A stretch of 11,190 nucleotides of DNA. Source: Bacillota bacterium (GTDB lineage Bacteria > Bacillota_A > Clostridia > Peptostreptococcales > Anaerovoracaceae). The stretch spans positions 1 to 11,190 of the forward strand of contig JAFRWH010000083.1 in assembly GCA_017438085.1 (NCBI GenBank), given 5' to 3'. Shown in pieces: positions 1 through 2,631 of the stretch; positions within the stretch are counted from its first letter, which is position 1; each line of letters starts with the position of its first letter. Below the pieces are notes generated by a model, which saw only the letters and a list, made by a program, of their open reading frames with translations, did no database searches and had not been told where the DNA came from. The translations under genes were made by a program, and so were the position numbers.

Positions 1-2631
1 AGTTGCAAAACTGAAGATCTTGTCTGATATGTCTCCTCCGTCAAATCCTATATGCCAGAGTTCCTCATGGGTCCCCGTATCGTAAACGAATATGCTGGGG
101 TCAGACTGCTCCATCTCGTGGCTGACGCTGCTGCCGGCATTTAACATGAGAAGGCTTCCATCGCCAGAAAAGCTTATATTGTTGATGCAGAGCTTATCGC
201 TTCTGTCGGTTACTGAGACCGTTCCGTCAGTTCGTCTGTAGAGCCGGCTGTGAGGATAATTCGAGCTGATGACAGCGGTCTCCTCCAGTGTTGCGGTATC
301 GATGATGCGTATATTGCCGGCGCTATCACCATTATTTGATGCCATATAGACATAAGCGCTGCCTCCGAAGATCGCCACCCTTAAGCCGCTCTGCCCCGGG
401 TAAAGAGTCTTTATGCGTTCAAGGGTATCCATATCATAAACAGCCAGGCCCTCCTTCGTGCAGACCCAAAGGGTCTTCTCATCCTCGGAAAGCAAAAGCT
501 GAGCGGAGCCTTCCGTATCCACCAGGGGCGTATTTGTTGTGCCGAAGGCCTGATCGTTTATACGCCTGGTAAGGGAAAGCTCCGGATCCAGGCTGTCCCT
601 ACGCCATATTTGTATATTATCAGCACCATAGAGGAGAACATAGGTATCGTCTGCGGAATTGTCGCTGTAGTCCCTGCTTCCGAACTCCGCTTTTTTCAGT
701 TTGAAGCTGCAGGGAATGGTCTGAAGAAGCTCGCCTTCAGCAACCGATACTATGCGTGCAGCATCATCGTCGCAGCTCAGAAGAAGCCTGCTGCTGTCCT
801 TGTTCCACTGAAAATCTTTAACAAGGTAAAGCCCGGGTTCGATAACGTTGAGTACCTTCTGGTTTACACAGTCAAGGATATATACCCTGCTGTCGTCGGT
901 AAGTACCGCAAGCACCTCGCGTTCTGCTCCGGAAAAAGCTGCCTTAACTATCGATATATTGCTTCCGGAAAACAGGGACATGTCAAGGGATGAGATCATT
1001 TTGGATTCCCCGGCATTCCAGAAGTACATAGCTTTTCGCCAGTAGCCGGCGATTATGCTGTCATCGCAGGAGACATCGATCTTATCGACCATATAGTATG
1101 TGTTGCTCATATTCGGTGAAGACCTTACGCTTTCGGCCTTTTCACCATCTATGTAGTAACGGAAAACGGTATTGTCCTGATCGCTGTGGCCCTTCATGAT
1201 GTTAACCATTATCACCGCAGGCGCCGCATCCGCATAGCTCTCAGACCGATAGCCTCCGATAACATAGCAGTTCCATCCCGTACCGCTTTTTGCCGCAATT
1301 GATCTGGCATCCTTGGGAATAAAGCCTTTCTCAGACCAGCTTTGCAGATCTCCAAGCGAAGCGTTTTCCCACTGGTAATCCCTGAAGGCAGTATTATATA
1401 TCTGATATCCGCTGAAGCTCCCCTCCTCGGAAAGCAGCAGATAGCCTCCGCCGGCCGTCATGTCATCGAAGAGTCCGGAAAATGAAGAATAGCCTTCCCT
1501 AACCTCGCCCACTATATAATCGCCCTTCTCATCCTTTCCGAGGATGGAATTGGAAATATTCGTCGTTCCCCTGTCGATGTGGTCCGGATATACTGCAAAG
1601 GGGACTAGCCTGTCGGAGAAAAAGCAGTTGATGGGAGCTTCATTAAATGAATATGCCGGTTCGAGGGCTTTTCCCGTGTTGAGATCCCAGGCTGTTATAT
1701 ATCCGGGACTGAGGCGCGAAAAGCAATAGATCTCATTTTCACTTGCCCTGAAGCTTTCAAGGCCCGGGATATCTATGATATCGACGGAATGGTACAGATC
1801 GTCTCCGGAGCCGGAGAATATGGCATTCTGTAGGGAATATAGGGCATCGCTCACAAATGGGCGCTCGGGATCATCGAGATCCTTCGGAAGTGCTTCCAGG
1901 GAAAGAAGCAGTGAAAGCATCATTTCTCCGTTATCCAGAGCTTCATTTGCGCTTTTCGCAAGCCATTTGGATTCTGCCGTCAGCGCTTCATTTCTCTGGG
2001 CAGTGATCTCGGCGTTTTTGTGCACTGTATAGCCCAGAAAGCCTGCCAATGCCGCGAAAGCCATAGCGATAAGGCCTGCAGCTATGCGGGTCTTTCTTTT
2101 TCTTGCCCTCTGCTTCAGGTCGTCATAGCTTATGCCAAGCATGGCGGCGATAAGGCGGAGCTTTTCGCTTTTGAGTTTCCGGACTGAGCCCTCTATGGTG
2201 CCAGCCCTCACGTCTGCAGCCAGAGGCTCGATCTCTATAGTCCTGCCGTTCTCCTCCCTGAAGCAGAGCTCGGGAGGGAAGGATTCAGAGGGCTCTCCCT
2301 CTGCCAGAACGGTCAGTATATGATCCTGTTTTCCAAGGGAAATAAAATACCGGAGCTCCTCCATGCACCATCTGGAGGCAAGGTATTTCGGTGAGCATAT
2401 GCAGATCAGCCAGTCGCTGTTTTCCAAAGCCCTGTGTATGTCCTCGCCAAGATCCGTGGACAGCGTAAGCTCATCCTGGTCCCTGAAGACCCGGCCCATC
2501 CTTTTAATTCCCCTTGAGCTTTTTATCTGAGAAGGTATGCTGAAGTTCTCTATATATGAGGCCAGTTTTTTTGCGATATCCGCATCAGGCGAAACATGCC
2601 GGTAGGATATAAAGGCTGTATAATGGGTCAT
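1..2631 (-). CDS. TIR domain, membrane helix and beta-propeller-like protein (partial, runs off the left edge)
   Basis: The frame is open from the ATG at 2631 to the window edge (877 codons, no stop). Residues 1-110 form a TIR domain: FISYRH at 7-12, RVFRDQDEL at 47-55, then a Ser-Pro loop and SRWCMEEL at 86-93. The last fits the WCxxE motif, placing the conserved glutamate of TIR NADases at E92. A basic stretch (KQRARKRKTR, 173-182) precedes one hydrophobic helix at about 183-203, so the TIR domain should be cytoplasmic and the rest outside. Residues 205-250 are a helical linker of the kind (QRNEAL, LAKSANEAL, LLLSLEAL) seen before WD40 regions in large STAND-type and TIR proteins. From about 280 on, repeated beta-rich units such as SGDGSLLML (822-830) followed by FVYDTGT (848-854) suggest degenerate WD40/YVTN blades. 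The start follows GGAG (2638-2641) by 6 bases. NAD cleavage and a sensing role are inference from the family. The C-terminus is unseen. Confidence 0.88.
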   Translation of the reverse strand, partial: MTHYTAFISYRHVSPDADIAKKLASYIENFSIPSQIKSSRGIKRMGRVFRDQDELTLSTDLGEDIHRALENSDWLICICSPKYLASRWCMEELRYFISLGKQDHILTVLAEGEPSESFPPELCFREENGRTIEIEPLAADVRAGTIEGSVRKLKSEKLRLIAAMLGISYDDLKQRARKRKTRIAAGLIAMAFAALAGFLGYTVHKNAEITAQRNEALTAESKWLAKSANEALDNGEMMLSLLLSLEALPKDLDDPERPFVSDALYSLQNAIFSGSGDDLYHSVDIIDIPGLESFRASENEIYCFSRLSPGYITAWDLNTGKALEPAYSFNEAPINCFFSDRLVPFAVYPDHIDRGTTNISNSILGKDEKGDYIVGEVREGYSSFSGLFDDMTAGGGYLLLSEEGSFSGYQIYNTAFRDYQWENASLGDLQSWSEKGFIPKDARSIAAKSGTGWNCYVIGGYRSESYADAAPAVIMVNIMKGHSDQDNTVFRYYIDGEKAESVRSSPNMSNTYYMVDKIDVSCDDSIIAGYWRKAMYFWNAGESKMISSLDMSLFSGSNISIVKAAFSGAEREVLAVLTDDSRVYILDCVNQKVLNVIEPGLYLVKDFQWNKDSSRLLLSCDDDAARIVSVAEGELLQTIPCSFKLKKAEFGSRDYSDNSADDTYVLLYGADNIQIWRRDSLDPELSLTRRINDQAFGTTNTPLVDTEGSAQLLLSEDEKTLWVCTKEGLAVYDMDTLERIKTLYPGQSGLRVAIFGGSAYVYMASNNGDSAGNIRIIDTATLEETAVISSNYPHSRLYRRTDGTVSVTDRSDKLCINNISFSGDGSLLMLNAGSSVSHEMEQSDPSIFVYDTGTHEELWHIGFDGGDISDKIFSFAT

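Follow-up and report, generated by a model that had tools for sequence, protein, structure and literature searches.

What does a gene that joins a TIR domain, a membrane helix and propeller-like repeats in one chain do for its bacterium, and does the TIR domain act alone or through partners? The window analyzed here, a stretch of 11,190 nucleotides, poses this question because its first 2,631 positions hold most of such a gene. Genes were called with a codon-weighted caller combined with six-frame searches, and the features that the argument needs are the following.

1..2631, (-) strand: the TIR-TM-double-propeller gene, with its ATG at 2631 and its C-terminus beyond the window edge; 877 aa visible
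2293..2613, (-) strand: TIR domain, residues 7-113
2356..2370, (-) strand: WCMEE motif; the codon of E92, a catalytic-type glutamate, is at 2356-2358
2086..2112, (-) strand: basic membrane-proximal stretch QRARKRKTR, residues 174-182
2029..2085, (-) strand: membrane helix, residues 183-201, inside helix 169-233 of the structure model
1807..2028, (-) strand: helical linker past the membrane, with LLLSLEALP, residues 202-275, from the structure model
586..1803, (-) strand: first WD40-type propeller, residues 277-682
1..534, (-) strand: start of the second propeller, residues about 700-877, from model strands; it reaches about residue 1118 in P0002
2778..4622, (-) strand, the same as the TIR gene: ABC exporter upstream of the TIR gene, by Pfam, across a 146-base gap

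Because the window ends inside the TIR gene, the downstream side of the gene is out of view; a longer relative, P0002 (1149 aa), is 96% identical to the visible part of the window protein. Upstream, the same-strand genes encode two ABC exporters, MarR, HAD, flavin reductase, RluD, LspA, DivIVA and SepF. A consensus scan of the 146-base gap between the nearer exporter and the TIR gene found no promoter-like or terminator-like site (counts near chance), and this exporter is not thought to belong to the TIR system.

A protein search returned at least 2320 matching proteins, 120 of which are listed; where names are given for these listed matches, they denote TIR domain proteins from Lachnospiraceae, Oscillospiraceae and other Firmicutes. 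The initial annotation had read a TIR domain with an intact WCxxE motif from the window, and this reading is confirmed. The protein has the TIR fold, and E92 is kept in 120 of the 120 listed relatives, aligns with the glutamate of the plant L6 and RUN1 TIRs, and sits in helix 87-98 of the structure model, the helix after the third strand. The fold resembles that of NAD-cleaving TIRs, and NAD+ cleavage is predicted. Curated models do not place the protein in the ThsB type (Pfam ThsB_TIR, 19.1 bits vs a cut-off of 21.2; NCBIfam ThcB4, 18.7 vs a cut-off of 220), and PADLOC gives weak matches alone (PDC-S66 at 3e-4, ThsB at 4e-3). Separately, five tandem pairs occur in three genomes (G001, G185 and G024; L061-L065, e.g. 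L061:6331-11297). The first gene of each pair encodes a TIR-TM receptor that has FISY and WCxxE; the next encodes another membrane protein, whose degenerate TIR lacks FISY, RVFRD and WCxxE and keeps EPLAA...LRLLAP...basic stretch. These pairs are perhaps heteromeric receptors.

The basic stretch, single membrane helix and propeller-like outer region described in the initial annotation also hold up: one membrane helix with an inside-positive flank is present in 119 of the 120 listed relatives, the structure model supplies the strands, and the protein has the WD40-type propeller fold. Linker residues L243, A247, L248 and P249 are invariant across 33 aligned sequences. Hydrophobicity and charge, the whole basis for orientation here, would put the propellers outside and the TIR domain in the cytoplasm, in keeping with the proposed receptor plan. 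If the hydrophobic helix did not in fact carry the propellers across, they would be cytoplasmic; cysteine content, which gives no signal as a topology test (68 of 120 proteins have less of it in the C-terminal part), leaves room for that arrangement, but the charge asymmetry around a single helix and the acidity of the C-terminal part (median -6.8 vs -0.6 net charges per 100 residues) make it quite improbable. Among 32 relatives, median identity falls from 65% in the TIR domain and 56% in the membrane-linker part to 31% in each propeller; the outer half thus diverges more than the inner half among distant relatives. Between the window protein and P0002 we count 14 differences in 275 inner residues vs 22 in 602, so that the inner part is no better conserved in this close pair, which we counted against the pattern. 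A homology search with the propellers only gave at least 3 matches and was uninformative. The receptor plan of the window protein is likely, and what we have seems to be a membrane protein of a gut- or rumen-type bacterium whose double propeller senses the outside and whose enzyme-type TIR answers inside.

The gene is patchily distributed. Of the 200 genomes searched from the G001 family, 37 have a TIR-TM match, and so the gene is no fixed housekeeping gene at family level; across the class, matches at 1e-30 occur in 33 of 391 genomes, and G001 itself has 9, partly as paired copies. A phage or plasmid origin was also considered: a search of 50,697 phage records gave no match to the window protein, no carrier contig was viral by two patterns, and 9 plasmid records have a match, the best from Butyrivibrio fibrisolvens.

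Clustering of the genes around relatives brought out one same-strand neighbour family in 12 loci. In a first Pfam scan of six of these, two members had Ion_trans_2 with RyR, one had RyR below the cut-off, one had HD below the cut-off, and two gave nothing. Pfam RyR is above the cut-off in L068 and L071 (both with Ion_trans_2), L143, L074 and L145; it is below it in the L046 neighbour (23.8 vs 27.4) and has no match in the HD proteins of L001, L045 and L048 or the Rossmann-type proteins of L053 and L057. The RyR-type proteins come in four forms: a K+-channel-RyR fusion, a membrane Rossmann-type protein with an RyR-type tail, an HD protein with an RyR-like tail, and a small stand-alone protein. 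The "RCK-like/Rossmann-type" label denotes membrane helices plus a GFGxxG-type motif and lies outside Pfam support. The cleanest gene order is channel-RyR, Rossmann-type RyR and TIR-TM-Sel1, the last being a sister type of the window protein in which Sel1-type repeats replace the propellers; this set recurs in L066, L071, L072, L073, L075, L168, L169 and L170, and the genomes G029, G163 and G175 each have two RyR genes and a TIR gene, placed on separate contigs. On the B. fibrisolvens plasmid, the TIR gene is followed by an RyR-type protein that scores 61 bits with our in-house RyR model, which was built partly from the loci under study, and has no Pfam RyR call.

A second kind of neighbour is a SLOG-DUF4231 protein, whose DUF4231 part we take to be SLATT-like. 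It is carried by L001, L048, L107 and L108, none of which carries ThsA there; in L001 and L048 DUF4231 comes with a weak SLOG (YAcAr) match, and in L048 DUF4231 is above the cut-off and YAcAr-SLOG below it. In the reverse search, 18 of the 308 genomes examined from the G001 family carry SLOG-DUF4231, two of them (G001 and G094) beside TIR-TM; the other 16 have no adjacent TIR-TM, an RyR-type gene (in-house model) is nearby in 7 of the 16, and kinase-TPR or LRR proteins stand alongside elsewhere among them. The module thus has several front ends, a result that counts against the pathway preferred below. HD RyR-type and SLOG-DUF4231 genes also occur together in L191, L193, L195, L197, L198 and L200, stretches with no TIR of the window family, and kinase-TPR proteins adjoin the SLOG gene in L198 and L200. 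Other recurrent neighbours are a 180-aa protein between the TIR-TM-propeller gene and the Rossmann-type RyR gene in three genomes (L053, L054 and L056; the L053 copy has no Pfam match) and a cluster, seen at 13 loci, of mostly convergent genes for proteins of about 495 aa that read as DHH-like, which we set aside because it looks like lineage synteny.

Co-occurrence speaks to whether the association of RyR-type and TIR genes is real. Among the 200 genomes, RyR (PF02026) is found in 24, TIR-TM in 37 and both in 21 (Fisher p 1.4e-15); with 12 TIR-Sel1 genomes taken out, 9 of 12 RyR genomes fall among the 25 of 188 with TIR-TM (p 5e-7); the genomes are related and therefore not independent. By coordinates, 15 of 26 RyR matches adjoin a TIR gene, one of these being a weak TIR match.

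In a first tree, which left out 8 of 80 TIR genes that lack FISY near the start, 20 of 72 genome rows have RyR or SLOG within 6 kb, among them 5 of 7 in the window's clade. A fuller tree, with nine more contexts and the plasmid added (2 of 10 later genes left out, again for want of FISY near the start), has 22 of 80 TIR rows so linked, three of them (L142-L144, outside the window's clade) fetched because of their RyR match, and its starred branches require the linkage label to change 10 times or more. In this tree the window's clade (support 97/95) comprises 21 rows; genomic context is available for 8, of which 4 are linked. The change from 5 of 7 to 4 of 8 came about because L107 and L108, which have a SLOG-DUF4231 gene next door, moved just outside the clade and L209, L210 and L211 came in. 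In L001, L045, L046 and L209 a same-strand RyR or RyR-like gene lies no more than three genes away, and L001, which shares with the window the smallest supported set that holds it (6 rows), has the order TIR, LRR, HD-RyR-like, SLOG-DUF4231.

These neighbourhoods bear on the earlier view that the gene stands alone as a self-contained system, a suicide receptor in which outer binding would cluster the TIR domains and drain NAD+ with no partner. That view draws on the active-site residues kept in every one of the 120 listed relatives and on the 58 of 80 TIR rows that have neither RyR nor SLOG within 6 kb, including L047 and L049, which have context and lie in the window's clade. However, some unlinked rows lie on short contigs: L210 and L211, also in the clade, extend just 101 and about 800 bases past the 3' end of the gene. 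The RyR-type neighbours in 4 of 8 clade loci and the strong genome co-occurrence weaken the self-contained reading; the relatives do not support it, and we regard it as unlikely.

The RyR-type neighbours can be compared with a known ligand site. A 2026 preprint reports binding of both 2'cADPR and 3'cADPR by RyR-domain proteins of phages, one of which also cleaves the two molecules, and gives the ligand residues of RyDEP as H75, W78, H100 and D117 (PMC13232231). Residues at this spacing (0, 3, 25, 42; that is, H, W+3, H+25, D+42) are present in 10 of the 26 RyR-type proteins examined: 7 of 7 of the channel type, 1 of 7 HD (L074), 2 of 5 stand-alone and 0 of 7 Rossmann-type. It is thus mainly the channel type, found with the TIR-Sel1 sister type and with L143, that has the predicted site intact. 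Under a permissive pattern, H and D occur with longer loops in the 6 other HD proteins. The similarity of the HD tails to channel RyR (E 4e-7) spans 44 columns in a region picked by motif and covers the first helix pair only. None of the window-clade RyR-type proteins tested has the exact RyDEP spacing: in L046 an H stands at +24 and position +42 lacks D, and the HD proteins of L001 and L045 have long insertions. By sequence, then, the window's own clade shows an altered or stretched form of the predicted RyR site; gating of any of the RyR-type neighbours by a TIR signal is inferred. The small stand-alone RyR proteins (about 100-150 aa; L140:9214-9504, L142:1897-2355, L144:1923-2285, L145:1918-2211, L146:5861-6160), of which those of L140, L142 and L144 are encoded on the opposite strand adjoining TIR-TM genes, are possible messenger sinks or hydrolases like RyDEP.

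As for what would trigger the receptor, the initial annotation had named phage adsorption among candidate surface events, and we find no support for phage-triggered sensing in the phage records or in the weak PADLOC matches of the protein. Nor did the neighbourhoods reveal a clear defence island: among 114 neighbours of 17 window-type genes (17 of 22 WC-type genes, counting neighbours of up to 900 aa), PADLOC returned 9 families at 1e-10, few and generic, most with a single member and mad3 with 4. The commonest neighbour families, among the 25 listed of 159, are ordinary, such as ABC permeases, MatE and response regulators. Together with the empty phage and viral-contig searches, this setting would suit a non-defence surface sensor with the same kind of pathway, one that responds to the state of the envelope, to host glycans or to neighbours by adjusting ion flux or metabolism. 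Against that stand the patchiness of the gene, the nine matches in one genome, the divergent outer part and the plasmid-borne copy, all of which look more like conflict genes; we consider such a sensor improbable. A distant relative on a Sinorhizobium plasmid, a TIR-TPR gene (L208), has an NgoFVII/PLD-type gene and a methylase gene of Eco57I/MmeI type as neighbours, a restriction-like setting, and likewise has the look of a conflict gene.

The reading we prefer, tentatively and at close to even chances, is a Thoeris-like pathway that runs from a membrane receptor through an ADP-ribose-type messenger to an RyR or SLOG effector. The outer propellers would bind a ligand or register a surface event, binding would bring TIR domains together in the cytoplasm, and the TIR, which has the fold and residues for it, would cleave NAD+ to yield an ADP-ribose-type messenger. 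A neighbouring RyR-type or SLOG effector, as linked in relatives, may then read the messenger, the candidates being the membrane Rossmann-type RyR protein, the K+-channel-RyR, the HD-RyR-like protein and the SLOG-DUF4231 membrane protein; the response, begun at the cell surface, would be ion flux or a metabolic arrest. The neighbours of several relatives, predicted nucleotide-sensing channels and membrane proteins, suggest a receptor-to-channel alarm pathway. A more specific version, in which an ADP-ribose-type signal from membrane TIR receptors, whose outer parts diverge fast, opens RyR K+ channels or activates SLOG/RyR membrane proteins of adjacent genes as a bacterial outside-in cADPR-ryanodine-receptor pathway, is possible but rather doubtful.

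The preferred pathway resembles several known systems. Toll-like and IL-1 receptors have an outer binding part, a single membrane helix and an inner TIR; the window TIR is instead N-terminal and catalytic-type, with propellers in place of LRR or Ig domains, so that the plan is alike and no kinship is claimed. Kinase-TM-propeller receptors such as mycobacterial PknD combine a cytosolic effector, a membrane helix and an outer propeller, and the window protein has a TIR where they have a kinase. In Thoeris (ThsB TIR with ThsA SLOG), as here, the TIR is predicted to make an ADP-ribose-type signal, and some relatives have a SLOG neighbour; however, the window type is a membrane propeller receptor rather than a cytosolic ThsB, and the individually scanned neighbours include RyR-type proteins and no SIR2-SLOG or macro protein. 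As we read it, the window system works like Thoeris and is no member of it by curated models. A study of TIR + SLATT (2TM) pairs likewise describes a TIR next to a membrane protein of two helices, for which regulation by ADPr derivatives is predicted (PMC9503650); in the present loci DUF4231 follows a SLOG-type part, and the TIR belongs to a propeller receptor. In the comparison with phage RyDEP and the animal RyR R12 domain (PMC13232231), the channel-type RyR neighbours keep the four ligand residues at RyDEP spacing, but bacterial RyR is here joined in one protein to a K+-channel, Rossmann-type membrane or HD part, beside TIR genes, and is a predicted host effector where RyDEP is a phage counter-defence protein. 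We found no paper on TIR-WD40, TIR-TM, TIR-RyR or similar combinations so named, a negative that does not extend to Burroughs 2015 (gkv1267).

All bacterial TIR pathways known to us start inside the cell, and the gating of RyR channels by cyclic ADP-ribose has long been debated in animals. If the preferred pathway is true, bacterial TIR signalling would gain a Toll-like input side, connected through an ADP-ribose messenger to RyR channels; RyR domains, of which phage ones bind 2'/3'cADPR, would gain a host-side role; and a direct test of whether cyclic ADP-ribose gates RyR-domain channels would become feasible.
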